A stretch of 64,000 nt of DNA from Epilithonimonas sp. JDS (GTDB lineage: Bacteria; Bacteroidota; Bacteroidia; Flavobacteriales; Weeksellaceae): contig NZ_JAJSAX010000001.1 of NCBI RefSeq assembly GCF_021261315.1, positions 372,001 to 436,000 on the forward strand. Reading direction: 5' to 3'. Below, one piece after another: positions 13,124 through 51,229 of this stretch. How positions within the stretch are numbered: the first letter of the stretch is position 1; each line of letters starts with the position of its first letter. The position numbers and the translations under genes were made by a program. The notes under the pieces are model-generated. The model did no database searches. It had not been told where the DNA came from and saw only the letters and a program-made list of their open reading frames with translations.

Positions 13124-16100
13124 CTATTTGATAATTTTCTTGGTTCTGATATTACCTGCATTATCTGCTTTAATAATATAGACACCGGAAACGATGGTTC
13201 TTGCATCCAGACGCAACTCTTTCTGAGATGTACTTTTGGAGACAATCAGCTTACCACTTGCATCGTATAATTCTACGTTACCCAAAATCTTAGAAGATTT
13301 GACGACGAAATATTCTCCATCTCTGTAAACCAAGAACTCTGATTTTTTCAGATCATCTGATGCCAGAACTTCTTTGTTTTTATAAACAATTTCGAAGCGC
13401 GTTTCATCTGTTCCTTTATTAGCTGTAAAGATATAATCCTGAGACGTAAGATCTGTGTACAAATTGTTAAGTTTATCAAAAAGATAGATTTTTTGATTGG
13501 TATCAAATATACCTTCTTTACTTCCTAAGCTAATTTTGTAATTGCCAGTAACAGAGTATTTATTCCCCAATGGAATCACATCTTCCAAGTTCAGAGGATT
13601 GCTTCTTGCCTGGATCTGCAACTTCTGAGTATTCAATTTGGAATAGAAAGAATCATCTCCTAATGATAAAATATCTGCATCATAATTAGCATCGTAATTA
13701 TTGGTTGCACCATCTACGTGACCGATAAGAATTGTATTGACGATATTATCAGGCGTGGTCAACATTACCCAATATCTGTTCACATCAGAGGTTCCTTTAT
13801 TATTATAGAACACACCAGCTTCACCAGTTCTTATGGTATTATCATAAGTCAGAGTTTGATTGGTTCCAATATTCTTAGCCTGAACGATGAATGCCTGCCC
13901 CACTTTGATATTTTTTGTAGGAATATAAGCACCCGTTGATGGAGACGGCGTTACTGTTGTCGTTGGAGGCGTTCCACCCAAAAGTGTAATAGTAGCATAG
14001 TTGTTTCCAGCATAAGCCGATCCATCTTGTTTCACGACAGGTGTTACATTGCTCCAGAACCAAGCTTTTGCATTAATAATATTACTGTTGTTACCTAAGA
14101 AGAAGAATTTCACAAAATCCATATTAGAAGGATAAGGGTTTCCTATCAGGTTGTAGCCGTGTTCTACAATTCCACCAGTCCCTGTGTTAGGCGATTTCTT
14201 GATATTAATTGAATAGCTACCGTTATTTGGCGTTCCTACAAATTTTAGATTCGTATCTGAAGTTAGTACAGCAGGATCATATGTAGATTTACCACGTATT
14301 GCGTAGCCTTTTGCATCTATAAACTTAGCATCTGGAGTTGCATAGAATCTATCATCTGACTCATTGTATTGGAAAATTCTGTTATTTGGTGAACCTTCTG
14401 AGAAACCACCTGTACTGTTTGCGGCATTTACATTTGCAGTGTTCAGCAAAGGCTGATCTTTAACAGGCGAGCTCCAGTAAGTATAATCCAGTCTACGCAT
14501 TTTCACATCACGTTTCGCCAGCATTTTTCCTGTATTAGGAATTGTTGAATTCACCTGAAGAAGGTTCGCATCACTTTCCAAGACAAGGTTATCATTAGTT
14601 GCATTGTTTGTGATATCAATCGCATCAGTCACCGTCAAAGAGTTACCTGCAGTGATAGTTGTTTTACCAGTAGCAGCGATTGTCAAAGATTTTGCCTCTG
14701 CATTACTGTTAATAACAACAGTTTGAGTAGCAGGAATGCTTGCACATTTTCCATTATCCGGAACTTGAGCCGGGAACCAGTTTGCTGCTGTATTCCAATC
14801 TGTTCCAGGTCCTCTGAATTCTTTTTTGAGTCTTTCAACAGAGGCTGTATTTATAATTTTATCACAAGTTCCTACTGTCGCTTTTAACTGATAACTTGTT
14901 GCGATGGTCGGCGCAGCATAAACAGTAGTTGCATTGGCAGCTGCTACATAAGGAATCGTGAGCGCTGCATCTGTATACAAACCGGTTGATGGCGTCCATG
15001 TAATTTTTGGTGTAACATTAATTTTTACATTATCGATGATCCAACCGTAATAATCCACAACATTATCGTAGGCTAATCTGAATCTAATTTTAAAATTAGT
15101 ATTACCCATAAAACTAGCCAGATTAATCGTTTCTGATCTAAACATTGCGCTTGCAGGCGCGGTACCTGGAGTAGAAGTACTTGTTGTGAACTGAGTATTC
15201 CATTGCGAATAACTAGATTTATCGAAAGAAACAACACCATTTTTCAATGTAGCAGTACCTACATAACTAGACGTTGGAAACGTTGTCCAGTTTGTCCCAC
15301 CATTGGTTGAATATTCAACATACCCGTAGTCAAAACCTGCTTCGGATGCACAGATATGATCAAACGTCAATTGTGCGGATGCGTATTGAGACAAGTCTAT
15401 AGAATTGGTTAAAACAATTCTCGTGTTTCCAGCAGCATTATCCACCACTCCTGCACCTTCCAAACTAATAGCTTGAGTGCCTTCCGTAAAATATGGTTCG
15501 GTGTAAAATGAACCACTACCAGTTGCGTTAAGCGAGAAATAATCTGAAACTGCAGTTTCAAAGCCTTCTTTTATTAAAGAAACAGCCGTATTTCCTGTAA
15601 CATCCAGCTTAACATAATCCAAAGCACAAGCAACATCGGTTGCACCCGCCGGTGATGAAACAATGGTCGGTTCAAGAACAATATTTGCCGGCGCCACCAA
15701 AATCGCAGCAACCACAGAAGAACGCAGACCAGATTCACAAGTACCGTTAAAGACAGAAACATAATAAGTCGTTGTTTCAGAAATGCTTGGAGTAGACCAG
15801 TTTCCTATAGGTGTTGTCGCTAGCGGCGTACCTCCGGTAGATGCCGAATACCAACGGTACTCGGTAGTTCCAGCAGATCCTACCGCACTTAAGTTCACAG
15901 AACCAGTACCACAATTTGAGCCATTGGTAACTGAGGTGATAGAAACTGCACAGGATTTTTTCACTTCAACATTATCAATAGCTGCGGCAGTATTGTAATT
16001 ATCAAAATTATCATTATTCCATTCAAACACCAATCGCATTGTTTGTCCAGCAAATGAACTGACATCTACGTTCGTGTTAAACTTGGTAGCAAAAGTCGGT

Positions 16101-19100
16101 TGCTGGTTCATATTGTCGTTAAGAAGAACTCTTCCTGCACCAGCGGTGATTTGAGTTCCAGCTACTGGTGTAAATGATGCAGGTACCAACCATACTTTGA
16201 AATAATCATAGTAAGTAGCACCTATATTTTCTCCCACTGCTCTCCAATCATAGTTAATATCTACTAATGTAGTTCCAGACGTAATTGCAATATCACGATA
16301 CGCCTGCACTACGGATGTTGTACTTATATAATTATTATTTGTTCCTGTCGCTGTACTTGAAATGTAAAGACTTTTGGTTCCACCATTATTGACAGCATTT
16401 CCTACAAACCATTTATTTGTCTGTGTTCCATTCACAAGCGTCCAGTTATTTGCGCCTTCAAATCCATCCGCATAATCTAGAACCGCAGCTATGTGAGCTG
16501 TTGTAAAAGTACCAACAGTGCTCCATGCGCTTACATCTGCTCCGCAACCTTTTGTTCTCACCCATACATAATATAGTGTTGATGGATTTAGAGCTGTCAA
16601 ATTAGCAGTTGTCACACCAGCTGCTGTAGTTCCTGATGGTGTAGTAGATGTAATTGGTGCAGTAGACGAATTAGAATAGTAATAATCATAACCTTTGATC
16701 GCACCAGATGTTGGCGCAGTCCAATTAATAGTAGCGGAAGCATCAGTAATGGATGCCGCAGCTGTTAGCGTCGGTACATTTACCACTACCGTTGCATCTC
16801 CCAAATCAAGGAATAGATCAGCAGTTTTATCATTTCCTAAAGCACTGTATTGATTTCTAAATATTAAGTTGATTCCCTGAACCGTAGTACCTGCCGGAAT
16901 ACAGAAGTAATCTGCAAACTTAATAGTAGCTTTATATACATTTGGAGATGTAGACTGTCTTGTAAATTCTACCAATGTTGCCGTATTGTTTGCATCCTGA
17001 GCTGTTGTCCCAATATATTGAAATTGTGATGTAGGGCTTACCTGGACACCGGCATACATCCAGATACTAGTCTGACCATCTGTATAGAAATTATTGACGC
17101 CATCAAAATCTTTTAAATAAACATCAATTGTGTTGTTTACAGTATTGTTTGGCGAAACAGCATCTGTATATACTGTATAATCAGGTGTCGCGACAACTGT
17201 AAATTTATAATCTTCAGCCTCAGAACGAGTTATTGATGAATTACAAGGATCTACAACATTACCATTGGAAAGGTACATAGTTCTCACTCTCATTCTATAG
17301 TCTCCCACTGCAGTACCTGCCGGGACAGTAATAGAACCACTACCAGATGTAACATATGATGCTAAACCATATACTCTTTCCGAAGATTCGAAAACCAAAT
17401 TATTGTTCCAGTCTATCCAAATTGCTGTTCCAGCACTACCGCCAGTCGAAGTAAATGAAAAATCCACAGTACCTGCCGCATACATCTCTACTTTTTGGGT
17501 AGCATAGTTATCCTGATAACCTCCTGTAGTATATGTTGAAGTATTGCTTATATTGGAAGTGTAGCCTTTAGTAGTCGTAAAATTTGAGATATAATTTGTC
17601 GTATTGGTACTTGACGGTCTGCAATATCCATAGTAGAAACTTCCTCCACTTGCCCAAGTACTTTTATCTACACCATTGCAGTTAGAACGCACCCACCAGT
17701 AGTAAGTATTTCCCTCAACCAAACCAGTAGTTATGCTAGCAGTTGTAATTCCTGCACCTACTGAACCTGTAATTGTAGAACCAGCAGTTGGAGCCGTATT
17801 GGTTGTAGAAAGATAATATTCGTAACCGTTTGTAGGCGCAGCAGATGGTGCTGTCCAATTGATATTGGCATTGTTTACAGCAACCATTGCAGATGAAAAC
17901 GGTGCAACTGGAACTTGACAGGTTGGTGTAAGTTCCAGCCTAAAATCATCCACCCCTAAATTCCACGGAGTACCTGTAGAACTTACACTTACTGCAAAAG
18001 TGTAGTTGGCAGCAGATGCAGGCGTGTAGCTATAAGTATATTTTACATAACCTGATGTAGTTTGAGTTGCACTTACAAAAGTAGCTAATTCGGTGGCACC
18101 AGTTAAAATTTGAGAATTGTTAACTAACAATTTTCCTGTCCACCCAGTATTTGTCGTTCCTGTACCAGTGTTATAATAAAAACTAATATCATATGAAGTT
18201 CCTGCTGACAATGCAAATGCAGGAGTCCATAATTGACTTGCTAAACTATTACTATATTGAATAGACATATAATTTGGTGTAGATCTCGGATCATTATATG
18301 TATCCGTAGCCGCATTTGCAGAAACCCACGCCTTTGTACCAGTTACATTACTCCAACAAGTGGGGGCTACTCCAGAACCGATAGTAGACATACTATCAAA
18401 ATTCTCAGTCCAAGGGAAAGAAGAAATTGCATTACAAGAAGTAAGAACTGTCTGTGTCGCACTATTAACACTTGTACAAGACGTTGCGCCAGTTGCTCTC
18501 ACTCTATAGTAATAGGATGTAGCGGGATTCAATCCCGTTACTGCTTGTGATGTTCCTGTAACAGCTAAACCATTGTAACCCGATACGAATGAAGCAAACG
18601 TAGAAACAGTAGAAACATCCAACAGATAGCCTGTCGCACCAGTTACCGCTGCCCAGTTAGCCGTGAATCCTGAACTTGTGACTGCAGTTCCTGCACTGGA
18701 GGTCGGGGTTGCAAGACAAGTGGTAGCAGAACCTGTAACTCCCGTCGAATACCAAGGCGCACCTGCACAGGAATTGGTACTGCTTCGTGAAAACACAAAA
18801 TAGTTATGCTGTGTATTTGGCGTTCCGCCTACCAAATCATAAGATGTCACCGTTCCGTTACTAACTACACATTTATATGTTTTTCCACCAATGACGTAAT
18901 CTGTGCCGGTAACATAAGTAGTTCCTGATGACAATGTAGGAATATCTGTGGTTGTGGTTGAAAGAAAAACCATGTAACCAGTAGGAACTGGTGAAGCAGC
19001 AGTAAAGCCAACCGTCAGTGTTGTAGCTGTTACGTTGGAAATTACGACGTTACTTGGTGCATTTGGAATAGAACAAGCTGTTGTGAATGTGCCGGAAGCG

Positions 19101-20332
19101 CTCCACGCACTTTTATCAGTTCCGTTACAATTTGATCTAACCCAATAGTAATAAGTCGTTGCAGGTAATAATGACGACAACCCTGCTGTTGTAACGCCCG
19201 CTGCAGTTGAACCACTAGGCGTTTGCGAAGAAGTTGGTGTAGTACTACTTGTACTGTAATAATATTCGTAACCACTTGCAGGCGCTGTACTTGGGGCAGT
19301 CCAGCTTATAGTGGCAGAATTAGTTGTTAACAGTGAAGATGTAAGTGCCGTAGGAACCCCTGAACAAGTTGGTGGAGACCATATAAATGTTAATCCTGAG
19401 GCTGGAACACTAGTAGAATTTAAAGTAATTGTAGCAGTATTTGACGATCCTGAAACGGTTCCTGCCCAAGTAGATCCTGACCTGTTATTGAAAATAGAAT
19501 TAGTTGCACCACGCAAACCCACCTGAGGATAAGTAGTGTTACTTGATGTAGTTGTATTAGTTCCATAAACAACACGAACCACATTTGTTGTTTGGGTTAG
19601 TCGTATCTGAAAATTCAATCCACTATTAATACCATAATTATTATAAACAGCCCAATTCTGAAATTGGACCACAAAGTCCGATCCTACTGTCGAATAACTT
19701 ATAGTACCTCCCGCTGTCAAAGATGCAGCTGCATTACTTGCTGTTGCATTTGCGCTTAACGTAATCGTTGTGCCAGAAATCGCTGTAATATAAGTATTTG
19801 CAGGAATACCAGTACCTGTCAAAGGCTCACCTACCTGCAATGCAGCTGCAGTTGCAGTACTACTAACAGTTATTGAGTTACTTCCAGAAGCAATTGAAGC
19901 AGTAACTGCAAAATTGTTATTTACCAAATCCCTTCCAATTGCAGCGACTACTGCATTCCCTGTTGCAGTAGAAATTGGAGTTGTAGCACTTGCTGTAGGA
20001 GTTCCAAAAGATAAAAAACCATTTGAGTTCACATATACAGTTGTACTCGCACTTTGGGTTGTTGTGCCCAAAGTAAAGCTAAAGGGAAGGGTAGCACTAT
20101 AATTTACATCGTCTGCACCACTAGTTCCAACACCGGTATTCCTTACCAGTGTTGTTGCTGTGGTAGGATTTAAAGGTGTATACGTTTCGCTACTTTGAGT
20201 GAAATTATATAGGCTAACTTGTCCATTTAATCCTAAAGAAGTTGAGAAAGCAACCAGAAGGAAAACAAAAAACTTGAAATTTGCAAAATAAAATGCATTC
20301 CTCGTTTGGGAAGATAATAAATTTTTAATCAT
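13124..20332 (-). CDS. Giant T9SS-sorted surface protein 1 (2402 aa): fibronectin III, GEVED, MAM-like, Ig-like domains
   Basis: Secreted multidomain protein. The signal peptide covers residues 1-38. Approximate layout: an N-terminal beta domain (40-320), three FnIII domains (330-630), a jelly-roll-like region (640-800), FnIII (803-900), a GEVED domain ending in SRSEAEDY (900-1050), FnIII (1190-1280), a MAM-like domain (1280-1457), an Ig-like domain (1457-1545), a second MAM-like region (1584-1767), a G8-like NW repeat (1839 onward), then the shared W-S-S-P-V cassette from about 1948 and the type A sorting domain over the last 75 residues (GVYIIKADNAGNIRTKKIIK). The Sec and T9SS pathways would export it and PorU-type processing would attach it to the surface. 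Likely an adhesin or matrix protein; the ligand is unknown. No strong terminator follows. Confidence 0.9.
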   Translation of the reverse strand: MIKNLLSSQTRNAFYFANFKFFVFLLVAFSTSLGLNGQVSLYNFTQSSETYTPLNPTTATTLVRNTGVGTSGADDVNYSATLPFSFTLGTTTQSASTTVYVNSNGFLSFGTPTASATTPISTATGNAVVAAIGRDLVNNNFAVTASIASGSNSITVSSTATAAALQVGEPLTGTGIPANTYITAISGTTITLSANATASNAAASLTAGGTISYSTVGSDFVVQFQNWAVYNNYGINSGLNFQIRLTQTTNVVRVVYGTNTTTSSNTTYPQVGLRGATNSIFNNRSGSTWAGTVSGSSNTATITLNSTSVPASGLTFIWSPPTCSGVPTALTSSLLTTNSATISWTAPSTAPASGYEYYYSTSSTTPTSSQTPSGSTAAGVTTAGLSSLLPATTYYYWVRSNCNGTDKSAWSASGTFTTACSIPNAPSNVVISNVTATTLTVGFTAASPVPTGYMVFLSTTTTDIPTLSSGTTYVTGTDYVIGGKTYKCVVSNGTVTSYDLVGGTPNTQHNYFVFSRSSTNSCAGAPWYSTGVTGSATTCLATPTSSAGTAVTSSGFTANWAAVTGATGYLLDVSTVSTFASFVSGYNGLAVTGTSQAVTGLNPATSYYYRVRATGATSCTSVNSATQTVLTSCNAISSFPWTENFDSMSTIGSGVAPTCWSNVTGTKAWVSANAATDTYNDPRSTPNYMSIQYSNSLASQLWTPAFALSAGTSYDISFYYNTGTGTTNTGWTGKLLVNNSQILTGATELATFVSATQTTSGYVKYTYSYTPASAANYTFAVSVSSTGTPWNLGVDDFRLELTPTCQVPVAPFSSAMVAVNNANINWTAPSAAPTNGYEYYLSTTNTAPTAGSTITGSVGAGITTASITTGLVEGNTYYWWVRSNCNGVDKSTWASGGSFYYGYCRPSSTNTTNYISNFTTTKGYTSNISNTSTYTTGGYQDNYATQKVEMYAAGTVDFSFTSTGGSAGTAIWIDWNNNLVFESSERVYGLASYVTSGSGSITVPAGTAVGDYRMRVRTMYLSNGNVVDPCNSSITRSEAEDYKFTVVATPDYTVYTDAVSPNNTVNNTIDVYLKDFDGVNNFYTDGQTSIWMYAGVQVSPTSQFQYIGTTAQDANNTATLVEFTRQSTSPNVYKATIKFADYFCIPAGTTVQGINLIFRNQYSALGNDKTADLFLDLGDATVVVNVPTLTAAASITDASATINWTAPTSGAIKGYDYYYSNSSTAPITSTTPSGTTAAGVTTANLTALNPSTLYYVWVRTKGCGADVSAWSTVGTFTTAHIAAVLDYADGFEGANNWTLVNGTQTNKWFVGNAVNNGGTKSLYISSTATGTNNNYISTTSVVQAYRDIAITSGTTLVDINYDWRAVGENIGATYYDYFKVWLVPASFTPVAGTQITAGAGRVLLNDNMNQQPTFATKFNTNVDVSSFAGQTMRLVFEWNNDNFDNYNTAAAIDNVEVKKSCAVSITSVTNGSNCGTGSVNLSAVGSAGTTEYRWYSASTGGTPLATTPIGNWSTPSISETTTYYVSVFNGTCESGLRSSVVAAILVAPANIVLEPTIVSSPAGATDVACALDYVKLDVTGNTAVSLIKEGFETAVSDYFSLNATGSGSFYTEPYFTEGTQAISLEGAGVVDNAAGNTRIVLTNSIDLSQYASAQLTFDHICASEAGFDYGYVEYSTNGGTNWTTFPTSSYVGTATLKNGVVSFDKSSYSQWNTQFTTSTSTPGTAPASAMFRSETINLASFMGNTNFKIRFRLAYDNVVDYYGWIIDNVKINVTPKITWTPSTGLYTDAALTIPYVAAANATTVYAAPTIATSYQLKATVGTCDKIINTASVERLKKEFRGPGTDWNTAANWFPAQVPDNGKCASIPATQTVVINSNAEAKSLTIAATGKTTITAGNSLTVTDAIDITNNATNDNLVLESDANLLQVNSTIPNTGKMLAKRDVKMRRLDYTYWSSPVKDQPLLNTANVNAANSTGGFSEGSPNNRIFQYNESDDRFYATPDAKFIDAKGYAIRGKSTYDPAVLTSDTNLKFVGTPNNGSYSINIKKSPNTGTGGIVEHGYNLIGNPYPSNMDFVKFFFLGNNSNIINAKAWFWSNVTPVVKQDGSAYAGNNYATITLLGGTPPTTTVTPSPSTGAYIPTKNIKVGQAFIVQAKNIGTNQTLTYDNTIRTGEAGVFYNNKGTSDVNRYWVMLTTPDNIVNTILIGHVDGATNNYDANYDADILSLGDDSFYSKLNTQKLQIQARSNPLNLEDVIPLGNKYSVTGNYKISLGSKEGIFDTNQKIYLFDKLNNLYTDLTSQDYIFTANKGTDETRFEIVYKNKEVLASDDLKKSEFLVYRDGEYFVVKSSKILGNVELYDASGKLIVSKSTSQKELRLDARTIVSGVYIIKADNAGNIRTKKIIK

Positions 20333-20791: not shown

Positions 20792-23700
20792 TTATTTGAT
20801 CACTTTCTTGGTTTTAAGATCTCCAGAGTTCTCAGCTTTGATGATATAAACTCCATTTGTCAAAGAAGAAGCATCTATCCTAACTGTGTTTTCTTTCGTT
20901 GAAGAAGTTATCAACATTCTACCTGAGGTGTCATAAATTTCTATTTTACCAAGAGACTTAGAAGATTTTACAACGTAGGATTCTCCATCTCTGTAAACTG
21001 TGAAATCAGATTTTGCGTTACTGTCTGTTCCAAGAACTGCATTGTCTTTATAAACAATTTCGAAACGGCTGTCGTCTGATCCTTTGACCGCAGAGAAAGT
21101 ATAATCCTGGCTTGTAAGATCAGTGTAAGAATTAGTCAGTTTATCTTTCAAATAGATTTTCTGATTTTCAAAAATCCCTTCCTTGTTTCCAAGGCTGAGC
21201 TTGTAAGTTCCATTTGCAGCATATTTGGTTCCAACAGGAACTTTGTCTTCATTCGAGAAGTCCGCTTTACCTTGGATAGCCAATTTCTTGGTTCCTAAAA
21301 TAGAATAGAAAGAATCCGAACCTATAACAAATAATTCAGCGTCAAAATCGATTTCAAAACCATTAGTAGCACCCGGAATGTAACCTACCAATAATGTATT
21401 GGTAATGCTTGCAGGCGATGTCATTCTAATCCAAAAACGGTTTTTCTCAGCTTTTTTAGCATTGTAGAAATGTGCATTTGCATCATACCCGACTCTCATT
21501 GTATTATCAAATGACAGCGCACTTCCCGCTCCTAACTTTTTAGACTTGATGATGAAGCCCTGCCCTACTTTCACAATTCCATTAGGTGTAGGACTTGCAG
21601 CACCAGAAGGCTGATGCGGATCTACTTCTACCGCTGGTGTTCCACCAGTCATATTGTAGATTGCATAATTGTTCCCGCTATAATTAGAGCCAGACTGCTG
21701 CTGGGTTGCTGTAATATCATTATTGGTCCAGAAATACGCTGTTCCGTAGATCTTACTGCTGTTGGCAGCGTAGAGCGCGTCAAAATTCAGATTAGATGGA
21801 TAAGGATTTCCAACCAAATTATAACCTTTTGTACAGTCAGCTTCCAAAACAGAACCTCCACAAGAGTTCTTCAAGATTTGAGACGAAATCGGCCCATTGT
21901 TAATTTTTCCATTGAAAACAAAAGTATCAGCACTTGCTGGAACTTCTGATCCTGTCCCACCCGTTGGAGTGTAACTGTTTTTACCTTTGATAGCATAGCC
22001 TCGTGCACTATCAAATACTGAACTTGCTCCTAGTGTAATTTCGCCACTTACCGCTGTCACGAATGTATCAGAGGATTCTTTGTAAACGAAAAATCTGTTC
22101 CAAGGTGTTCCTGTACCACTTCCAGCCGCCTGATTGTAACCGTTTGAGAAACTGTAAAGATTCTGATTGCTTACCGGAGAACTCCAGAAAGTGTAACCTT
22201 TTGTAGGAAGTTTTGCCGTACGTTTTACAGTAGCTGTGAAATTTGAGTTATTATCGGCCCCTGTGTTTTTCTGCACAAGACCAGCATCACTTTCTATTGT
22301 AATTTTGTTATCGGAAGGAAGAATAATATTCCCGTTCACAATAACATCTTTTGTCGCTTGAACATCCAGAGATCCTGTACTCGTGATTTCCAGATCTTTT
22401 GTTTCAAAATTAGTAGCAATATTATAAGCGCCTGTCAATTTTGAATCAAGTGTTGCGGTTGGACCAACATTATCGTTGCTCCAAGCTGTTCCGTCCCAGA
22501 CAACGGTGTTGTTGGTGGTGACAGCAACTTCGGTAGAATTCGCAGATTCACAAGCAGCAGTTGTTGCTCTTACAACGTAGTAATATTGGGTGTTTGGCTG
22601 TAAACCTGTTACATTGTAAGATGTTACATTTCCAACATTTTCATTTTGCAATATGTAATTATTAGCAATGGCATTAAAAGTGTGACTTCCTAAATTTGAA
22701 ACCACATCAACATTATACTGAGTCCATTGTGTCGCTAAAGTAGGAAAACCACTAGCTGGATTTGCATTAACACCGGATGCAATGTTAGAATTACGAACTA
22801 AAGTTTTGTCAGCAGTTGAAAATCCCGTTGCAGTCCAAGCTGTTCCAGGATCTTCTCCTATTTTTCCAAAAATATCTACGGAAGAGTTTGAAGAAATTTT
22901 GTATAATTCTACTGCATCATTACCATTAAAATTTACCGCGGCATTGTTAACTGCTGTTCCTGAGTAAGTGGTAGCAGCTGAGTTTTTATAAACTACTACA
23001 GCATTATTAGCTAACGTTCCTGACAAAGTGACATCAGTAGATATAGTACTTCCATTCGCATATAAACGTAATTTGTAATTACTTAGGTTAACAGAAATTC
23101 CAGTACCATTAAATATCTCAAGATATCTATTGTTAGATGTACCTTCAACATATTCAGATATTAACAGATCTGTAGCAGTACCCGTAACTTTTTTGTAAAC
23201 ATCCAATTTATAGCCGGTTGCTCCTGCAACTGCACTCCAATTGGCTGTGAATGTTGATGCAGTAATGCCTGTACCTGCTGTTGCAGTTGTAACTGGAATT
23301 ACACCTTTACCAGTAACTGCAACATTTGCAGTAGTCGCTCCACCACCTGCAGCTGTAATGTTTCCATTAAAATCTCCACAAGTAGAAGGATTTAGTTTTG
23401 TATAGATTGTAGTTTCTGCAAGCGTTGATGCCGTAAAAGGCAAGCTCACTGAAGATGCCCAAGCTGTTGTTCCATCCAAGGATAATTGATAACCTGCAAG
23501 GGCAGTTAAATCTATATTTCCTGTAGAGGCTGTAAGAAGACTTGCTTTTACTGTAAATGTTTTCACAACAGAATCTGTCGTTATGGCAACATCTCCAAAA
23601 TCCAGCGTCGAAGGATTTACAGTAATCGTTGGTACCGTGGTTACTGATGTAGTAAAAGATCCATCTCCAGTGGCACTTCCATTATTATATACTCTGTAAA

Positions 23701-41771: not shown

Positions 41772-44700
41772 TTATTTAATCATCTTCTTCGTTCTGATGT
41801 CTCCAGAATTCTCAGCTTTGATAATATACACGCCATTGATGAGAGCAGAAGTATTAATTTTAAGAGATTTGTTCAAAGTTTTCTGACTGATGACCAATCT
41901 TCCTGCCGCATCATAAACTTCAATTTGACCCAGAATTTTGGATGAATTAATCACGTAATCTGTTCCGTCTCTGTATACTTCGAAGTCAGATTTCGTGGCT
42001 GGATCTGTTCCCAGGAATGTATTATCCTTATACACAATCTGGAAACGTGTTTCATCAGTTCCTTTACCTGCTGTGAAAGAATAAGCCTGGTTTGTAATAT
42101 CGGTGTAAGTATTGAGCAGCTTGTCGATAAGATATATCTTCTGATTAGCTTTGAAAACACCTTCTTTATTACCAAGTTTAATCTTATAAGTTCCGTTTAC
42201 AGAATATTTTGTTCCCAGATTAATAACATCGTTGCTGCTCAGTGGATTATTTCTTGCCTGGATCTGCAACTTCTGACTATTGAGTTTGGAGTAGAAAGAA
42301 TCATCACCAACTGCTAATAACTCTGAGTCATAATCTGCATCATAATCATTGGTAGCGCCATCTACGTGAGCCATCAGGATTGTATTTACAACATTATAAG
42401 GTGATATCAATTTTATCCAATAACGGTTGATCTCGCTTTCTCCTGATTTGTTGTTATTATAGAAATAGCTAGAGCTGTCGTTGGATCTAATGCTATTATC
42501 AAACTTCAAAATTCCAAGATCAGGTGTATTTCCAGTTGGTGCGGCAGTTCTCATTTGAACAATGAAGCCTTGCGCTACTTTTATAAATTTGGTAGGAATT
42601 GGAGACTCTACCTCGTCTGAACCTGTTGCTGGAACTCCACCTGCCAATGAATAGGTTGCATAATTATTTGCCACATAAGCAGATCCACCCTGATTTGCAG
42701 GTGCGCCTGGAACGTTGGTCCAGAACCATGCTTTTCCTAAAATCAGATCGCTATTTTTCGTCCCAGTTCCATTATCAAGATTATAGAATTTATTAAAATC
42801 CATATGTGATGGATATGGATTCCCGATCATATTGTAGCCGTGCTCGGTAGAAACACCGCCAACTAATGTATTCTTAGATTTTTGAATCTGGATAAAATAG
42901 TTTCCGTTATGCAGAATTCCTCTAAAGCTAAGCTCATCTGATGATAGAGCTGACCCATAACCCGATTTTCCACGTATAGCATATCCCTTTGCCGAAACAA
43001 ACTGTTGGTCTGCTGTAGCTTTGAACGTATCTGTCACTTCGTTGTACTCATAAGTTCTATTGTTTGGAGAACCTTGAGAAAAACCTCCAGTACTATTAGC
43101 AGCATTAACATTGGCTGTATTTAATAAAACCTGATTGGCTACCGGAGAACTCCAATAGGTGTAATCTGAAGTTCTCATATTGACCTCTCTTTTGGCAATA
43201 ATGGTATTTGCACTGTTGCCATTTGTAAGTTTGGTCTGTGTAAGACTACCATCACTTTCGATCGTGATTTTGTCATCCGGAGTTGTGATATCTCCGTTTA
43301 CAGTAATACCTTGGTCAGCCAGAATTGTGATGGCGCCATTATTTGTTATGTTAAGGTTATTAACTTCAAGTGCCGTATTTGTACTACTTTGAGTATAAGC
43401 ACCATCGATGATTGCATTCTGAGATTTGTCTGGTCCATTAAAATTAGACCAAGCCGTTCCATCCCAAGTTATAGTGGTTGGTTTGAATCTTCCGTAAAAC
43501 TCTAAACCATATTGTTCTGACGCAGGAGAAGAGAATCCATATCCACCTGTAGCTGTACGTCCTGAAGCATAAAATCTAAAATATACGGTTGTTCCTGCAG
43601 CAATATTTTGTAGTGCAGTAACGCCAGCTAAATTCATATCGGGTATTTGACCATCTCCAATAAAGTTAATAGGAGAATTAATAAGAGTATAAGTCGTACC
43701 GTTTAAACTATAGGCAAACTGTATCTGTACACCAGGCGTTGTTGTAAATGTACCCGTACCAATCACACGAGCTTTAATAGATGTCAAAGACAAGATGTTT
43801 TCTGTAGCTGTAAAGCTTGTCTGGAAATAATCTGTATTGGTAACTTCTATTCCATTATTTTGAAAACCAGTAGTTCGGAAAGAATTACCTCCTGCACTTC
43901 CAGGCGCACCAGATCCTCTACTTAGTATCGCACTTGCCGCATTCAAAGAAGGCGAAATTTCTGTTGCAGCAAGAGTAGTTAAAGATGCTGATGATGTCAC
44001 ACCAAAGAAATCCCATTGTGCCAATGCCACAGGCAATTCTACCACATCTACTGTTTGCTGAACATTTGTTGCAGCATTGTAATTAATATTCCCATCTTGT
44101 GATACTGTCACTATTGTGCTTCCCATATTATTACCGGTAAGCGTAGCACCAGAAATGCTTGCTATAGCAGGTACAGAACTGCTGTATGACAATGGCAATC
44201 CAGATGTCGTTGTTGCATAAGTTGATAGATTGATTGTTCCACCTACATTTACAGTTGGAACGGCATTAAACGTAATGGTTTGATTTACTTTCGTAATATC
44301 AGCCGTCAATCCTGTTGGGAAAAGTGGAATATTATAATTGCCACCATCTGCTCCCAAAAGATTGATTGCCAAAACAGTTACTTCTTTGTCTAGTCCTGCA
44401 TTCGCATCAGAAAAACTTCCCGAGACTGTAAATGTTACAGTGTCTCCTATTAAAACACCTGTAGAAGTGACATTCGAGAACACTGCAGTTACAGTTCCAT
44501 CATAAGCTTTATCATTTGCAGTGATGGTACTAATGGTAATATCTTTTTTAGTGATAGTAGCCTGCAATGTTGGCTGCAGCACTGTATAATTTGCAGAAGG
44601 TGCATTGTAGTTTCCTGTTTTCAATAGTACTTTATCTGCACCAGCATTTTTGTTCGCAAATGCCCAACTCACTGTTCCTGTCACAGCAAATGTTTCTCCA

Positions 44701-46646
44701 TTTACCAATCCAGCATAAGCAGGCGTTCCAGTTACAACTACCGAAGTGCTTTGATCGTAAACCTTATTTTGTGGTACCAAACCGGTAATTGTTAATTCTT
44801 TTGGATTGACTGTTAAGGCTTGTGTTACATCTGAAGCAGCATTATAATTTGCATTTCCAATCTGTTGTGCTGTAATTGTAGCATTACCCGCACCAATAAT
44901 TTTCACAGTACTACCTGTTACAGTAGCAACATCAGTATTAGAACTTGTATAAGTAACCGTTAGCCCGGAAGATGCAGTTGCAGTCAATGCGTAATCTGCG
45001 TCACCATATATTTTTGTAATCGCAATAGGCAATCCTGTAATGGTTTGGCTTCCTTTTGCGATGGTAAATGTAAGCGTAGTCGGATCACTGGTTTCAGCAC
45101 CTTTCGTAGCAGTAACATTGGTTGTAAAAGTTCCTGCTGCTGTAGGAATCCCTGTGATAGCACCTGATGTTGTATTAAGAACAAGACCGGCAGGAAGATT
45201 GTTTCCCGCAACAATGGCATAACTATCTGGAATATTAGTCGCGGAAATATTTTGTGAAAAACTCACATTCACAGTGCCGTTGAAAGAAGATGCAGTAACC
45301 ACAGGTTTACTACTAGCCGAAGTAGTTACCGTTTGCGTGGCCGACCAAGCAGAATACCCACCAGCATTTTTAATACGAACTCTGTAATAGTAAGGCGTAT
45401 TCGCAGTTAGTGATGCAATCGTATAATTTGTAGCTGTTAAATTTTCGTTATTATAAATTGGAGAAGAGAAATCATTATTATCGTCTATTTCCAAATGATA
45501 AGTGTATGCCAGCGCACCTTGTGTTGCAGATGGTGCAGACCAATTCGCACGGAAAGAGTCTGTCACGATATTATCGGCAGCTGCAGAAATTGGAGCTAAG
45601 GATACTGTGGTAAATGTTGGATATCCCGAAGCGTTAGAATAAGCTGTTTGAGGCGTCGTACAGTTATTTGTTGCATATGCTCTGTAATAATAAAGTGTGT
45701 TCGCTGCTAGTCCCGACAATGTTTTGGTAAACGCATAAGGAACTGTGGAAACTGCAAGTCCTGTTGTACTGGCTGTAGTTGCACCAGCTAAAGTGGAAGA
45801 GGTTCCATAGTTGAAACCTACTTCTGTCACATTGGCACCACCAATTGCAATGACACTTCCTGAAAGATCTATTCCTACTGCTGTATTGTTTTCTAATGAC
45901 GTGGTTGGAGAAACAGTTGGAGCGGCGCAAGTTTCTACAAAAGAAGCTTTGACAGTAACATCATCTATACCTATACCTTGAGAATTAGATCCAGTTGTAT
46001 TTATATTCCAACGCAGATAGAATACTCCAGCTGGAGCAACGGCATTCGCAAAAGCAACATCAAAATTGTTGACAGAAACTGTTAGCTGAGGAAATCCATA
46101 TGCGCTACTTCCTGTCGGCAAAGATGCTGTTGGAACATCTCCAGCAGATACTGCTGTCCAAGTGGAGCCGTTTGTAGAATAATAAAATTGGACAGAAGCA
46201 GCGGATGAATTAATTCTATATCTCTCTACATTGTAAGATACTGTAATTTTGGTGATAGCAGCAGTATTAGTATTTTTGTAATAACCCATTAAACTACTTG
46301 GACTCGAAAAACTACCGGACGTCATCACACCAGGACTACGGTCAGATCCAGCACTATTACCCCAGTTATACAGACCGCCACTTGCCGGTGCTCCAGATGA
46401 AAATTGAAAACCAACAGTTCTTGTACCTCCAGCAAAGGTCGGACTTGCACTATTTTGCAGTCTCCACGACACCGGCAAAGCATTACTGATGCTTGTACCC
46501 ATCGTATTAAAATTCTCAGTAACAATCGCTGTTGATGGGATTTCTATTTGCGCCCAGACATTCACAGCCATTGTTAGCATAAGAAGAAACACAAATCGCT
46601 TCCTTATTACTGAAGATTTTTGATGAATTAATAATTTTATTTTCAT
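41772..46646 (-). CDS. Giant T9SS-sorted surface protein 6 (1624 aa): FnIII, putative Ig, MBG/YDG domains
   Basis: Signal peptide within residues 1-33 (LLMLTMAVNVWAQ). An N-terminal jelly-roll-like domain extends to about 230, followed by an FnIII-like repeat, a clear FnIII (355-440), a putative Ig domain (442-525, GLVLNTTSGAITGIPTAAGT), and a run of MBG/YDG-type domains (about 525-870) with NKVYDQST and DKAYDGT signatures. A further jelly-roll-like domain lies near 880-1050. The shared cassette starts near 1164 (YWSSPVANQVLL). The middle of the cassette is most like that of giant protein 1, while its tail (KSDFEVYRDGTDYVINSSK) matches proteins 4 and 5, so it looks mosaic. Exported by T9SS; adhesin-like. 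Confidence 0.9.
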   Translation of the reverse strand: MKIKLLIHQKSSVIRKRFVFLLMLTMAVNVWAQIEIPSTAIVTENFNTMGTSISNALPVSWRLQNSASPTFAGGTRTVGFQFSSGAPASGGLYNWGNSAGSDRSPGVMTSGSFSSPSSLMGYYKNTNTAAITKITVSYNVERYRINSSAASVQFYYSTNGSTWTAVSAGDVPTASLPTGSSAYGFPQLTVSVNNFDVAFANAVAPAGVFYLRWNINTTGSNSQGIGIDDVTVKASFVETCAAPTVSPTTSLENNTAVGIDLSGSVIAIGGANVTEVGFNYGTSSTLAGATTASTTGLAVSTVPYAFTKTLSGLAANTLYYYRAYATNNCTTPQTAYSNASGYPTFTTVSLAPISAAADNIVTDSFRANWSAPSATQGALAYTYHLEIDDNNDFSSPIYNNENLTATNYTIASLTANTPYYYRVRIKNAGGYSAWSATQTVTTSASSKPVVTASSFNGTVNVSFSQNISATNIPDSYAIVAGNNLPAGLVLNTTSGAITGIPTAAGTFTTNVTATKGAETSDPTTLTFTIAKGSQTITGLPIAITKIYGDADYALTATASSGLTVTYTSSNTDVATVTGSTVKIIGAGNATITAQQIGNANYNAASDVTQALTVNPKELTITGLVPQNKVYDQSTSVVVTGTPAYAGLVNGETFAVTGTVSWAFANKNAGADKVLLKTGNYNAPSANYTVLQPTLQATITKKDITISTITANDKAYDGTVTAVFSNVTSTGVLIGDTVTFTVSGSFSDANAGLDKEVTVLAINLLGADGGNYNIPLFPTGLTADITKVNQTITFNAVPTVNVGGTINLSTYATTTSGLPLSYSSSVPAIASISGATLTGNNMGSTIVTVSQDGNINYNAATNVQQTVDVVELPVALAQWDFFGVTSSASLTTLAATEISPSLNAASAILSRGSGAPGSAGGNSFRTTGFQNNGIEVTNTDYFQTSFTATENILSLTSIKARVIGTGTFTTTPGVQIQFAYSLNGTTYTLINSPINFIGDGQIPDMNLAGVTALQNIAAGTTVYFRFYASGRTATGGYGFSSPASEQYGLEFYGRFKPTTITWDGTAWSNFNGPDKSQNAIIDGAYTQSSTNTALEVNNLNITNNGAITILADQGITVNGDITTPDDKITIESDGSLTQTKLTNGNSANTIIAKREVNMRTSDYTYWSSPVANQVLLNTANVNAANSTGGFSQGSPNNRTYEYNEVTDTFKATADQQFVSAKGYAIRGKSGYGSALSSDELSFRGILHNGNYFIQIQKSKNTLVGGVSTEHGYNMIGNPYPSHMDFNKFYNLDNGTGTKNSDLILGKAWFWTNVPGAPANQGGSAYVANNYATYSLAGGVPATGSDEVESPIPTKFIKVAQGFIVQMRTAAPTGNTPDLGILKFDNSIRSNDSSSYFYNNNKSGESEINRYWIKLISPYNVVNTILMAHVDGATNDYDADYDSELLAVGDDSFYSKLNSQKLQIQARNNPLSSNDVINLGTKYSVNGTYKIKLGNKEGVFKANQKIYLIDKLLNTYTDITNQAYSFTAGKGTDETRFQIVYKDNTFLGTDPATKSDFEVYRDGTDYVINSSKILGQIEVYDAAGRLVISQKTLNKSLKINTSALINGVYIIKAENSGDIRTKKMIK

Positions 46647-46960: not shown

Positions 46961-49900
46961 CTACCTCATCACTTTTTTGGTTCTCATATCGCCGGAGTTT
47001 TCGGCTTTTATGATATAAACGCCAGTTGGTAACGATGTGTTTTCTATTCTGAAATCTTTAGAATTTGACTTGTAAGATTTGATGAGCTTGCCGCCAGCTT
47101 CGTACAGCTCTACATTACCAAGGATTTTGAAAGACTTCACCACAAAAGAATTACCGTCTTTGTAAACCTGGAAGTCTGTTTTGACATTTGCACCAGCATC
47201 CAGATATGTGGACTCTTTGTAAACGATTTCAAATCTTGAAGCATCTGCTCCCTTTACAGCCTGGAAAGTGTAGCTTCCGTCACTGCTGAGATTGATATAT
47301 TTGTTCAATAATTTGTCTCGAAGATAGATCGTCTGACTGCCATCGAAGATTCCTTCTGCAATCTGAAGATTGATGGTGAAGTTTCCGGCTGCAGAAGACA
47401 CTACCGCAAGAGGCACAACATCGTCCGTATTGAAATTACCTTTCTTGCCCTGTATCGCAAGCTTTCTCGCTCCCAAAGTAGAATAGAAAGAATCCGAACC
47501 TATTACAAAAAGCTCACCGTCATAGTCCGTTTCGAAACCATCTGTAGCCCCAGGAATATAGCCAATCAGCAAACTGTTGACAAGATCATTAGGCGAAGTA
47601 AGCGTGAGCCAGAATCTGTTTCTTGATTCTTCATTTTTCTGGAAGAAGGTACCTGGACCGGCAATTCGAAGCACATTCGAAGCACCGTAATCATTTTTAA
47701 ACTGAAGATTACCTGCACCGAAATCCTTTTTCTGCACGATGAATCCCTGGCCTACCTTCACAATGCCATTTGGAATAGCAGTAACACCCAAACCGACTGC
47801 TGCTCTTGTGGCGCTATTTCCTCCCGTCCCGTTGTAGATTGCATAATTGTTTGGTGTGTAATTCGATCCCGCCTGCACCGGAGTGAAATTGTTGTTGGTC
47901 CAGAAATACGCCGTATTCCAGATCAGAGATGAATTCCCCAGATACAGTTCATCGAATTTGATATTGGAAGGATAAGGATTCCCAACCAGGTTGTACCCGT
48001 GGATTACACTTCCGCCCGTGCCTGTGTTAGGAGATCTTTTGATTGCAACAGAAATATCAGCATTATTTGGAACTCCTGTAAAACTGTAAGTCTTGGAAAT
48101 ACCATTCAAGATGCCACTTTCTGCGCGGAAAGCATAGCCTTTTCCTGCCACAAAGTTGGGTTCTAAAGTCTGGTTGACAGCGCTGAACTTATCCGTGCTT
48201 TCATTATACTCATAAAGTCGATTTGCAGGCGTACCTGGCGAAAATGTCTGCAAATTCTGCCCAGACACCGGCGAACTCCAGTAGATGTAGTCCATTTGGG
48301 TCGTGAGATTATTAATATTACTCGCCAATCTTTGAGACTGGATATTGCCCGTATTTACAGCATCCGCATCCTGTATCAACTGCGCATTGTTTTCGAAGAT
48401 GACAGACCCGCCGGTATTTCTAATTCCTTTCTTCGCCGTGAGAACAATTGGCCAGGCAGCATCCGTAGTAAGCGGCGTTCTGAGTGTTCCGCCTGTAACC
48501 GTAACCAAGTTATCAACCGTTGTGCTACCAAATAAGGTTTTCACACCACTATCAGAAATCTTGATATTATGATAAGCATTACTGCTTCTGAGTGTCTGAT
48601 TTCCTGTAGAAGCCAGCTCAATCTCACCACCTGTAAGATTCATTGTGAAAAATCTTGGAATATACTCATTATCAATGGCAGTGGCAGATGCTTTGGTGAT
48701 TTTATAAGCTGTTCCTGCAGCCATCTTGAGAACACCCGAACTGCTTTCTGTAGTTCCTCCGTAGATGTAGTTGACATCAGTCTCTTCCAAACGACCTCTC
48801 CTGATATCCAGAATACCTCCCAAACCGCCATTAATATTAGCATTCGTTAATTTGATAATACCAAAAGAAGTGCTCGGCGATAAAATCAGATTATTGTTGT
48901 CCATCTCCACTATGACTGCCTTTCCGTTGCTCAAATTTCCAATACCCGTTCCCATACTTTGATTTTCTTTTCCAATGTAATGGAAAGTTCCGTAGGCATA
49001 GCGCGGATCATTGGCCGTCCTCACGTTGCCGACAGTTCCTGCAGTAGCTGAAATCCCTTGTGGTGAAGAGATTTTGAGATACGCACCTAGTATGGCATTG
49101 AAGTCGGTTCCCGCTCTTCCGTTTCCTGTAATGTTGTTTGCAGTATTTCCCGTAAATCCGAAATCCAAAACAGCGCTACCTTCCACGAAGAATCTGGAAT
49201 TGAGACCTAAATCAAAATCACGGGCAAGCTGTACATAGCTTCCAGGTTTTGCAGTGAAGAGAATCCTTCTGCTTCTGCTGGTATCCGGAAAGGCAACGTT
49301 GATACTCTGAATTTTATCCGCAGAAGTTCCATCGCCAGTGCCTGTAAAGTTGAAAACCTTATTGGCATTGTTATTCTGAGTTGCATCCAGTTTTCCGCCA
49401 GTTACAGTCAGATCGCCTTTTAGATTAATGATAGAACTTGCGCCGATCACTGTATTGGCATTCATATCGAATGTACCGCCAGTGATATTCATATTGCCAT
49501 CGATATTCATCGTGTTACTGCCGGCTGTAAAGTTTGTGAGATTGACAATCCCTGACGACTGAGAATAGTTCCCAAGAACATTGATGGTATTGCCTTGCCC
49601 AACTGTGTAAGTTGCAGTTCCGCTTATAACGAGGTTGTTGTAAGTAAAAGACGGCGCGGTAATCACAGTTCCGGTTGCCGGAGAAAAGAAATTGACCGTA
49701 CTGCCTGTCACCGTATAGGTTCCGGCTCCCGGTGTGAAGGTATTACAAATCCCTACTGTTCCTGCGCTTGGCAAAATACGGTTTCCTCCCGTCGCATCCA
49801 AAGTACCATAATTAAATGGCGGAATCGTCTGCGGACTGGTACTTTTGATCTGTATTTTACTGCTGCAATCCAACGTAGCTGTAGCACTGCTTCCGTAAAC

Positions 49901-51229
49901 AACATTTCCTCGGATAATCAGATCACTGTTGGCGCCCAAATTCAGGTTTCCGTTGACAGTGATATTATTGATAGAACGAACGCCTGTTGTGATAAGACCG
50001 TTTGCTCCCGAATTGATGGTAATATTATCAAAAGAGGTAGGAACGCCATTTGGTGTCCAGTTCTCAGCAATCTGCCAGCTGGTATTCACGTTGCCGTTCC
50101 AGACATAATCATTAGATATAGAAGAACTTACGATATTGACATTATAATCCTCCGTGTCTCCGTAGGTTGTCGTATTACAGGAGTTTGCGCTGGTATACAC
50201 CGTGTCACTTCCGCCCCGCAGCCTTATTCTCTTTGGTCCAAGACTCGCAGTTGCCGGTATTGCGAAGGTATAAGTTACAGTAGCATTACTGGTTGCAGGC
50301 GTTGTGGCTAAAGCAACAGCTTCCGAGTTTTCAAATATCCCATTACCATTGAAGTCAATCCACGCACCGCTGTACTGGATGTTTACAGGATCGTCTGTTC
50401 CGAAAGTCATTGACAGCGTATTGGTCGTAGATCCCCGAACCAAATCCAACGGCGGCTGATTGTTGGTGTAAAGATAGCCTGTGTTGCCTGTGGTTGCATT
50501 AGAATAGTTATCGCCCAGAGAATTAGTGAGACTCATATTCAGAATCCTGTCGTAAGTATTGGAATTGGTCTGATTTGCCAGACAGCTACTCACCGAAAAA
50601 GAAATATTATCGATTGCCGCAGGCTGGCTTCCGTTGCCATTGCTATTATTCGTCCATTCAAAAACCAATCGCATGTTCTGACCAGCGAAACTGCTGATAT
50701 CACCTGTGATGCTGTAAGTGGTAAAAGTTCCCTGTCTTAAAAAATTGGCACCAATCTGCACTCTTCCTGTTGCGGCTGCAATTGGTGTTCCGGCCGTAGG
50801 CGTAAAACCCGAAGGCACGAGCCAAACCCGCAAATAATCATAATCTGTACACCCTAGAAAACAAACTGAATCCCCCTGAGCTTTCCAGTCAAAAGACAAA
50901 GTTGCATTGGTTGTACCTGCCGGAACTGTAATATCCCTGTAAGCCTGCGTTATAGATGATGTAGTCAGCGTGTATTGATTCGACACCCCATTGTTATTTG
51001 AAATATAAAGCGATTTATTTCCCACTCCATTGCTGGTAGCAGTTCCTACAAACCATTTGTTAACCTGAGTTCCATTAATAAAACTCCAATTATGGGTGCC
51101 TTCGAAATTTTCAGAATAATTGAGCGTTGCCTGCGCAGAGATTGTTATACTACCCAGCATCAATAAGCAGACATAAAATACATTGTGCAAAATATTATCC
51201 TGCATGTAAATTAATAGTTTTTCCTTCAT
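46961..51229 (-). CDS. Giant T9SS-sorted surface protein 7 (1422 aa): MAM-like, GEVED, beta-solenoid
   Basis: Signal peptide within residues 1-33 (FYVCLLMLGSITISAQ). A MAM-like domain covers about 40-210 and is closely similar to residues 1280-1457 of giant protein 1 (shared NGTQxNKWFVG, ITQAYRDI and AGQNMRLVFEW-type segments). A GEVED domain ends near 363 (GDTEDYNV). An NW repeat at about 376 opens a solenoid-like region to about 960 that resembles the same region in giant protein 4. The cassette starts near 982 (YWSSPVSGQNLQ), with GNPYPSN near 1082 and the type A sorting domain at the end (AENSGDMRTKKVMR). This is the first gene of the array in transcription order and is preceded by about 330 bp of AT-rich sequence. 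Confidence 0.9.
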   Translation of the reverse strand: MKEKLLIYMQDNILHNVFYVCLLMLGSITISAQATLNYSENFEGTHNWSFINGTQVNKWFVGTATSNGVGNKSLYISNNNGVSNQYTLTTSSITQAYRDITVPAGTTNATLSFDWKAQGDSVCFLGCTDYDYLRVWLVPSGFTPTAGTPIAAATGRVQIGANFLRQGTFTTYSITGDISSFAGQNMRLVFEWTNNSNGNGSQPAAIDNISFSVSSCLANQTNSNTYDRILNMSLTNSLGDNYSNATTGNTGYLYTNNQPPLDLVRGSTTNTLSMTFGTDDPVNIQYSGAWIDFNGNGIFENSEAVALATTPATSNATVTYTFAIPATASLGPKRIRLRGGSDTVYTSANSCNTTTYGDTEDYNVNIVSSSISNDYVWNGNVNTSWQIAENWTPNGVPTSFDNITINSGANGLITTGVRSINNITVNGNLNLGANSDLIIRGNVVYGSSATATLDCSSKIQIKSTSPQTIPPFNYGTLDATGGNRILPSAGTVGICNTFTPGAGTYTVTGSTVNFFSPATGTVITAPSFTYNNLVISGTATYTVGQGNTINVLGNYSQSSGIVNLTNFTAGSNTMNIDGNMNITGGTFDMNANTVIGASSIINLKGDLTVTGGKLDATQNNNANKVFNFTGTGDGTSADKIQSINVAFPDTSRSRRILFTAKPGSYVQLARDFDLGLNSRFFVEGSAVLDFGFTGNTANNITGNGRAGTDFNAILGAYLKISSPQGISATAGTVGNVRTANDPRYAYGTFHYIGKENQSMGTGIGNLSNGKAVIVEMDNNNLILSPSTSFGIIKLTNANINGGLGGILDIRRGRLEETDVNYIYGGTTESSSGVLKMAAGTAYKITKASATAIDNEYIPRFFTMNLTGGEIELASTGNQTLRSSNAYHNIKISDSGVKTLFGSTTVDNLVTVTGGTLRTPLTTDAAWPIVLTAKKGIRNTGGSVIFENNAQLIQDADAVNTGNIQSQRLASNINNLTTQMDYIYWSSPVSGQNLQTFSPGTPANRLYEYNESTDKFSAVNQTLEPNFVAGKGYAFRAESGILNGISKTYSFTGVPNNADISVAIKRSPNTGTGGSVIHGYNLVGNPYPSNIKFDELYLGNSSLIWNTAYFWTNNNFTPVQAGSNYTPNNYAIYNGTGGNSATRAAVGLGVTAIPNGIVKVGQGFIVQKKDFGAGNLQFKNDYGASNVLRIAGPGTFFQKNEESRNRFWLTLTSPNDLVNSLLIGYIPGATDGFETDYDGELFVIGSDSFYSTLGARKLAIQGKKGNFNTDDVVPLAVVSSAAGNFTINLQIAEGIFDGSQTIYLRDKLLNKYINLSSDGSYTFQAVKGADASRFEIVYKESTYLDAGANVKTDFQVYKDGNSFVVKSFKILGNVELYEAGGKLIKSYKSNSKDFRIENTSLPTGVYIIKAENSGDMRTKKVMR

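Follow-up and report, generated by a model that had tools for sequence, protein, structure and literature searches.

A tandem array of RemA/RemZ-type T9SS surface protein genes with probable exchange of N-terminal tips in Epilithonimonas sp. JDS

Adhesins with conserved ends and exchangeable parts are exemplified by the bab and sab genes of Helicobacter pylori, which encode paralogous outer-membrane adhesins and whose exchangeable parts are moved by recombination. In Flavobacterium johnsoniae, RemA and RemZ are type A cargo of the type IX secretion system (T9SS) and RemA is a gliding adhesin (PMC10994853), and in Flavobacterium psychrophilum genes for leucine-rich-repeat (LRR) proteins stand consecutively, in numbers that vary between isolates (PMC8400371), according to the portions of these two sources used here. 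The present analysis concerns a window of 64,000 nucleotides (positions 372,001 to 436,000 of contig NZ_JAJSAX010000001.1, assembly GCF_021261315.1) from the genome of Epilithonimonas sp. JDS (4.17 Mb, 25 contigs), in which seven adjacent genes at 13124-51229 of the window (minus strand) encode T9SS proteins of 1071-2402 amino acids (aa). The evidence indicates, with a probability of roughly 0.7, that this locus is a diversifying array of RemA/RemZ-type T9SS surface proteins, probably adhesins, whose outer tips are exchanged.

Between the seven open reading frames (ORFs) of the array, no further minus-strand ORF of at least 150 aa is present, in agreement with the original prediction, made from the sequence alone, that no unrelated gene interrupts them. 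All seven proteins score above the cut-off of TIGR04183, the type A sorting domain (P0007 lowest, with 24.9 bits against a cut-off of 23), and each begins with a sequence resembling a signal peptide that ends in [GA]Q, as judged by eye and with a simple motif. The long C-terminal cassette that was predicted to be common to them was recovered by BLAST in 21/21 pairs, as a region of about 500 aa or more that is 36-54% identical; the cassette itself measures 473-510 aa (about 490 aa) and, when cassettes alone are compared, is 40-60% identical to the first cassette of the array. The N-terminal domains, also as predicted, differ in their Pfam matches, although BLAST shows a 187-column stretch common to P0001 and P0007 (50% identity).

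From the first gene to the last, all on the minus strand, gene 1 (P0007, 1422 aa; 46961-51229) encodes a signal peptide, a tip without Pfam match that is about 50% identical to residues 1283-1464 of P0001, a GEVED domain and the RemA-type cassette (46964-48424); gene 2 (P0006, 1624 aa; 41772-46646) encodes a tip without Pfam match, an fn3 domain, two YDG domains and the cassette (41775-43292); gene 3 (P0005, 1680 aa; 36526-41568) encodes an fn3 domain, a middle part that is repetitive by eye and the cassette (36529-38001); gene 4 (P0004, 1857 aa; 30757-36330) has a tract of nine A (A9) at codons 4-6 and encodes two YDG domains and the cassette (30760-32220); gene 5 (P0003, 1071 aa; 27303-30518) encodes an N-terminal part without Pfam match and the cassette (27306-28724); gene 6 (P0002, 2083 aa; 20792-27043) encodes a tip of family T5, a part that is repetitive by eye, a GBD_T9SS_assoc domain, a lamin-tail domain and the cassette (20795-22324); and gene 7 (P0001, 2402 aa; 13124-20332) encodes four fn3 domains, GEVED, Ig_7 and InhA-like MAM domains and the cassette (13127-14614).

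Profile comparisons indicate that the cassette is distinct from the generic T9SS tail. Of 127 matches to TIGR04183 in the genome (126 over the cut-off), only nine genes carry the long cassette over nearly the full length of a profile built from the seven array cassettes; seven of these form the array and two lie elsewhere (C19:138113 and C1:805270). At E <= 0.001 this profile has 29 further matches, none of which extends over more than the final 98 of its 486 positions, and the remaining T9SS tails of the whole genome gave no match at this threshold. The cassettes are therefore far more alike within the array than they are to other T9SS proteins of the genome, which agrees with the original prediction. 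For the cassette gene at C19:138113, colinear orthologues were found in the species pairs examined, and this gene may be one of the stable family members.

When 66 aligned cassette members were scanned, no NCBIfam family was found for the cassette core, and Pfam gave only two single weak matches; as the core had no assigned domain family, it was pursued by a profile search against PDB sequences, which led to RemA and RemZ of F. johnsoniae. The cassette profile matches residues 636-1112 of RemZ (E 1.9e-129) and residues 967-1434 of RemA (E 4.1e-124), and the core without the sorting domain (about 380 aa) still matches both (RemZ, E 7.4e-106; RemA, E 3.4e-101). On this basis, the array cassette is homologous to the C-terminal part of RemA and RemZ. 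The AlphaFold2 models are confident: that of the cassette reached a mean predicted local distance difference test score (pLDDT) of 87.9, and that of the core alone a pLDDT of 89.7 and a predicted template modelling score of 0.89. The modelled sorting domain superposes on the C-terminal domain (CTD) of RemA (Z 11.1, 1.7 Å over 72 residues). When only the core was submitted to a fold search, nothing was matched at E <= 0.001, nor with Z of at least 5 among the re-aligned chains, the first 265 or so residues being barely covered, so a new fold is not claimed. The anchor of about 490 aa is modelled as a compact beta-rich core followed by a type A sorting domain. SprA and GldJ are also encoded in the genome, both above cut-off.

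Replacement of tips is apparent when close species are compared. Four flanking genes of Epilithonimonas caeni and Epilithonimonas hungarica are 88-95% identical, and in 4/4 slots of the array an unalignable tip of 0.4-1.2 kb lies between stretches of DNA that are 78-98% identical; similarity is lost between +19 and +99 of the gene and returns downstream. In slot 1, identity is 97.6% up to +81, the sequences cannot be aligned up to +540 (about 460 nt), and identity is then 97.0% over 5.3 kb. In slot 3 the break is at +99 and similarity resumes at +509/+692 (92.0%), and in slots 2 and 4 identity is 82-87% before the break (+87 and +19/+46, respectively) and 78-96%, with further gaps, after similarity resumes at +1330/+1099 and +1264/+703. 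Another pair of genomes, G021 and G022, shows a tip break in one of four slots, at +98. A non-array cassette gene served as control: it stays colinear over its whole length, from some 300 nt upstream as far as the stop codon, both in the E. caeni/E. hungarica pair and in the G021/G022 pair (94.3% identity over 4413 nt and 96.0% over 4137 nt, respectively). This gene is 86% identical between Epilithonimonas arachidiradicis and G021 or G022, and between the present genome and Epilithonimonas tenax it is continuous through the signal peptide and rearranged further in. One control pair (G021 C2 and G022 C1b, 583 and 901 aa) was excluded as not orthologous.

The upstream limit of the exchanged unit was located with 94 cross-species pairs that have homologous upstream and signal-peptide DNA. 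Fifteen of them continue into the mature protein and 79 break; in the broken pairs, similarity stops at the latest 18 nt past the Q codon, with 25/79 ending within -9 to +12 nt of it. The exchanged unit is sharper than an N-terminal domain: it appears to start where the signal peptide ends, or close to this point, and can be as short as about 0.4-0.5 kb.

The combinations of tips and signal peptides point in the same direction. They were analysed in 62 of the 68 cassette genes collected, six being excluded (contig edge, no signal peptide, out of slot, or dispersed). The tips, taken as the first 180 or so mature residues, fall into 30 families, 18 of which have several members. Eleven of these 18 tip families occur behind more than one signal-peptide family, and of the 10 signal-peptide families with several members, eight are combined with two or more tip families, with the proviso that one of them, S1, is a single-linkage lump that may comprise several families. 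Under strict criteria, 9/27 tip pairs cross signal-peptide families, the closest with 74% and 77% aa identity. A T5 tip used as query (from P0002) gave 10 matches in 23 genomes, itself included, all 10 inside array genes. Furthermore, for three N-terminal families the hypothesis that their cassettes form one clade is rejected by approximately unbiased (AU) tests (p 1.7e-10, 5.2e-6 and 5.8e-141), these families having been set by N-terminal BLAST after the cassette tree was known, and the tree resting on a quick search with SH-aLRT support only. Several N-terminal families thus seem to conflict with the cassette tree.

These comparisons also bear on a simpler explanation, in which the array would be an ordinary tandem T9SS family that has diverged by point mutation and indels, its N-terminal differences reflecting age and relaxed constraint. 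The paralogues must be old, since identity to the first cassette is no higher than 40-60%, and G021 and G022 are colinear in three of four slots, both of which suit this explanation. However, it does not account for a tip of about 460 nt that cannot be aligned between flanks of 97.6% and 97.0% identity in slot 1 of E. caeni and E. hungarica, nor for a non-array paralogue without such a break, nor for common tips behind different signal-peptide families. It could stand for the slots for which only distant comparisons are available, and as an account of the whole array it is improbable.

In the genus, cassette genes were found at E <= 1e-20 in 22/23 genomes, and the array occupies one chromosomal slot. 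The 5' boundary of this slot is a conserved 259-aa gene without assigned family (52888-53667, minus strand), which, where the contig reaches, adjoins glgP (alpha-glucan phosphorylase; 53881-55602, plus strand), the syntenic anchor on the far side; its 3' boundary is a sugar transferase gene (Bac_transf; 12026-12631, minus strand), the first of a polysaccharide cluster. Copies were counted in the 16 genomes in which one stretch spans the 259-aa gene and the polysaccharide side; the other seven have contig breaks in the slot, or the stretch was not taken (G013). The numbers of cassette ORFs per slot are 7 (this genome), 5, 5, 4, 4, 4, 3, 3, 2, 2, 1, 1, 1, 1, 0 and 0. These counts include G007, in which a different transferase at the polysaccharide side is followed by the same LegC/WbpM-type genes, Epilithonimonas mollis (counted as 3), which has an additional, mostly masked long ORF, and G008 (counted as 2), in which the first ORF has no signal peptide, perhaps because of damage. 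Both zero-copy genomes retain traces of the array: a broken cassette remnant is still in the slot of G002, and G019 (L157-L158) has the signal peptide and 5' part of one gene followed by what appears by eye to be an insertion-sequence transposase remnant. G019 also has an intact cassette gene, located some 9 kb away from glgP on its far side. Gene number is thus not conserved across species in the same slot, and with N-terminal families of which several conflict with the cassette tree and others agree with it, this is compatible with the original prediction. Since slot orthologues are recognisable throughout the genus, the duplications are old and do not represent a recent expansion in this strain.

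The variable copy number is relevant to a second explanation, that of a functional operon of partners, in which different enzymes or structural proteins would share one sorting cassette. The domain content does differ among the seven proteins, all genes share one orientation and lead into the polysaccharide cluster, and P0002 and P0007 have partial NCBIfam matches, below cut-off, to exonuclease (ExeM) and thermolysin models. However, these matches fall on lamin-tail and GEVED regions, and no catalytic domain is among the Pfam matches of the seven proteins. In addition, a terminator-like minus-strand hairpin starts at most 60 nt past the stop codon in 6/7 genes, which confirms the predicted count of own terminators, and a copy number of 0-7 argues against any fixed set of partners. 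An operon of partners is consequently regarded as very improbable. The gene without a hairpin of its own is the last one (13124-20332), for which the next hairpin (12671-12642) lies beyond a 113-aa ORF (12676-13017) absent from the original prediction, so that both may share a transcript.

Signals for expression were searched along the array. No RNA family was found over threshold at 12000-53000. Sigma-70-like promoter counts are without excess in the first half of the sequence scanned (59 against 60.9 in shuffled sequences) and about two standard deviations above expectation in the second (65 against 51.5). A -7-like motif is present upstream of 3/7 array genes here and of 40/65 genes in the arrays of the genus, against 15.2 expected (mononucleotide shuffles; the orthologues are not independent), an enrichment that suggests separate expression of the genes. 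The A9 tract of gene 4 (30757-36330) is a possible slippage site; such tracts occur in gene 4 and three others among 66 genes examined, and phase variation by A9 tracts was set aside, as 4/66 genes are too few to build on.

The source of the tips was sought by comparing the 62 tips with the 68 genes. Matches of more than 80% nucleotide identity comprise 16 rows within the same signal-peptide family and, across families, a single 82-nt piece (82%) in two rows, involving gene 6 here and G001; within one genome there is only one match (72% over 112 nt). These matches do not show any recent shuffling among the slots of a single genome, and agree better with DNA imported from strains outside the sample by way of homologous flanks; such import is judged at least as likely as within-genome shuffling. 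Exchange between paralogues is visible at one place: the last 250 nt of genes 3 and 4 are 96% identical, the rest of the aligned end being 54% identical, and this gene-conversion tract (36520-36819 in gene 3 and 30751-31050 in gene 4, both 3' ends on the minus strand, 93% identical over 300 nt) is by far the strongest among 80 paralogue pairs in 12 stretches.

Such a tract could also be expected of an active antigenic-variation locus, in which one gene would be expressed and silent cassettes would recombine into it within the lineage. An array of paralogues with common 3' ends would fit this scheme, as would a -7-like motif upstream of only three of the seven genes. Against it, all seven genes are complete frames that start with a signal-peptide-like sequence, the -7-like motif is enriched throughout the genus, and the swapped tips have no near-identical donor in the same genome. 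We therefore regard a locus of this type as unlikely. Site-specific recombination by a dedicated recombinase is not proposed either: there is a single inverted repeat of at least 30 nt at 12600-52000 (a palindrome, 15522-15583), and no recombinase is among the flanking genes examined.

The slot contains further conserved and variable elements. The 113-aa ORF (12676-13017, minus strand), located between the array and the polysaccharide cluster, has by eye a signal-peptide-like start, a Gly/Pro/Glu-rich middle part and a C-terminal hydrophobic segment with a basic tail. Pfam gave no match for it and NCBIfam none above cut-off. In the genus, all 21 stretches extending to this junction (the present one among them) have a relative at the same place, as do both genomes that have lost the array, and weak relatives were found in 4/6 loci searched in other genera. 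At the opposite end, two minus-strand genes (51561-52739) lie between the array and the 259-aa gene, coding for an SMI1/KNR4 (SUKH-type) protein and for a short ORF with a weak FG-GAP match; the other slots of the genus that were read have no ORF of at least 150 aa at this place. The array of G022 contains a complete rRNA operon (16S, two tRNAs, 23S, 5S; L164:10221-15300) between its genes 1 and 2; the contigs of draft genomes of relatives, for example G021, may end at comparable positions for this reason.

Downstream of the array, Pfam families delineate a surface-polysaccharide cluster (3358-12033, minus strand). It encodes a NeuD-like acetyltransferase (11419-12033), a LegC-type aminotransferase (10069-11202), a WbpM/CapD-like dehydratase (8122-10053), a Wza-like protein (7288-8073), a Wzz/Wzc-like protein (4815-7172) and a Wzx-like flippase (3358-4809), all on the minus strand; the names Wza, Wzc, Wzx and WbpM are those that we take to correspond to the Pfam families found. 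A family-wide search, in which up to eight candidates were scored per genome, gave cassette matches at E <= 1e-60 in at least 101 of 197 genomes and at least 15 of 33 genera. In 19 of 23 genomes of other genera, hand-picked among the matches listed and thus not a random sample, a cassette gene lies at most 15 kb from a WbpM/CapD-like gene on the same strand; in the remaining four, the two are on different contigs (three genomes) or about 510 kb apart (one). Among seven such loci that were read, six have the array beside WbpM-like and Wza-like genes, five of these six with a LegC-type aminotransferase as well. G177 has eight cassette genes, more than here, and G057 is the exception, without adjacency of array and cluster on that contig. 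These gene orders show that cassette genes are physically linked to the polysaccharide cluster in several genera.

In the mechanism proposed, each gene would consist of three parts: the 5' end, with upstream DNA and signal peptide, is specific to the slot; the outer tip can be exchanged and is followed by a middle part that varies; and the C-terminal anchor is conserved. Export of the proteins would proceed through Sec and, in a second step, through SprA with PorV, and the C-terminus would hold them on the surface; with attachment through the C-terminus, the N-terminal tip would face outward. Tips would be replaced by homologous recombination in the conserved upstream and signal-peptide DNA on one side and in the conserved stalk or cassette on the other, with incoming DNA mostly from relatives, and their diversity would be kept by selection on adhesion, phage or immune recognition. 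T9SS cargo of Porphyromonas, Tannerella and Prevotella is attached via linking sugars, as described in the part of the source used (PMC11969387), and the linked polysaccharide cluster may supply a glycan for the attachment of T9SS cargo, or a surface polysaccharide that the cargo binds; this is the weakest step. A more far-reaching version would make the end of the signal peptide the real exchange point of a genus-wide combinatorial system, in which a pool of tips, one of them found only in array genes, would move between slots and strains onto the RemA-type anchor, the glycan made by the linked polysaccharide cluster would be what the proteins bind or are attached to, and protein and glycan coat would co-diversify as one surface-identity locus. 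This version is doubtful, and is put forward tentatively.

Several observations weigh against reading the locus as a diversifying array of adhesins: (i) only the anchor is common with RemA, which leaves a lectin or gliding function unproven by homology, and no lectin family is among the Pfam matches of the seven proteins (a general Pfam scan, in which the RemA lectin domain itself was not compared); (ii) RemA foci are described as both immobile and highly mobile, without helical motion, and type A CTDs are said to support static anchoring or release, in the part of the source used (PMC12618676); (iii) adhesion, surface display and expression of the seven proteins are deduced from sequence; (iv) exchange is not equally fast everywhere, as seen from the three colinear slots of G021 and G022, and two of the four slots compared between this genome and E. 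tenax have no clear conserved 5' end; (v) 54/79 breaks lie outside the interval of -9 to +12 nt around the Q codon, nearly all upstream, in or before the signal peptide, and the 94 pairs share genomes and are not independent; (vi) some N-terminal families fit the cassette tree, for example that of gene 1, which is a supported clade; and (vii) in the sampled genomes, none of the other slots yielded a close donor for a swapped tip, and only 1/80 paralogue pairs shows clear gene conversion of recent date within an array. With these points taken into account, tandem duplication with N-terminal exchange, as opposed to an operon of partners, is still largely supported, given the similarity of the cassettes within the array and the variation in gene number and trees; the original prediction has to be qualified in that the duplications are old, that the exchanged unit is the tip after the signal peptide, that no close donor was found in the sampled genomes, and that the cassette is of the RemA/RemZ type and the locus linked to the neighbouring polysaccharide cluster.

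Among the matches listed in the open-licence literature, no description of such arrays was recognised by title or start of abstract; one of these matches concerns two tandem genes in colony spreading of Flavobacterium collinsii (PMC9950754). The analysis adds to the original prediction that the cassette is of the RemA/RemZ type, that the slot holds 0-7 copies, that the boundary of exchange lies close to where the signal peptide ends (with a colinear control gene), that the polysaccharide link extends to other genera and that the 113-aa ORF is conserved, as far as these points can be read from sequence. The findings suggest that a RemA-type anchor serves as a platform for many exchangeable outer tips, the swapping of which could let bacteria alter their adhesion targets or the way they are recognised. 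The arrays would thereby form a library, supplied by nature, of different tips on the same anchor, and offer a direct route to the binding partners of T9SS adhesins and to the forces behind their change (surfaces, phages or hosts).

In comparison with known systems, the array resembles the LRR protein genes of F. psychrophilum in its tandem genes and varying number, but differs from them in what is encoded, as neither a RemA-type cassette nor tip replacement is described in the portion of that source used (PMC8400371). It shares with RemA and RemZ the homologous C-terminal 470-490 or so aa, including the type A sorting domain, whose model superposes on the RemA CTD; unlike RemA and RemZ, it comprises seven genes in one array with replaced tips. 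The bab and sab adhesins of H. pylori, with their conserved ends and exchangeable parts, provide the working analogy for the array, although they are unrelated proteins that use another secretion route, whereas here all array genes are found in one slot beside a polysaccharide cluster.

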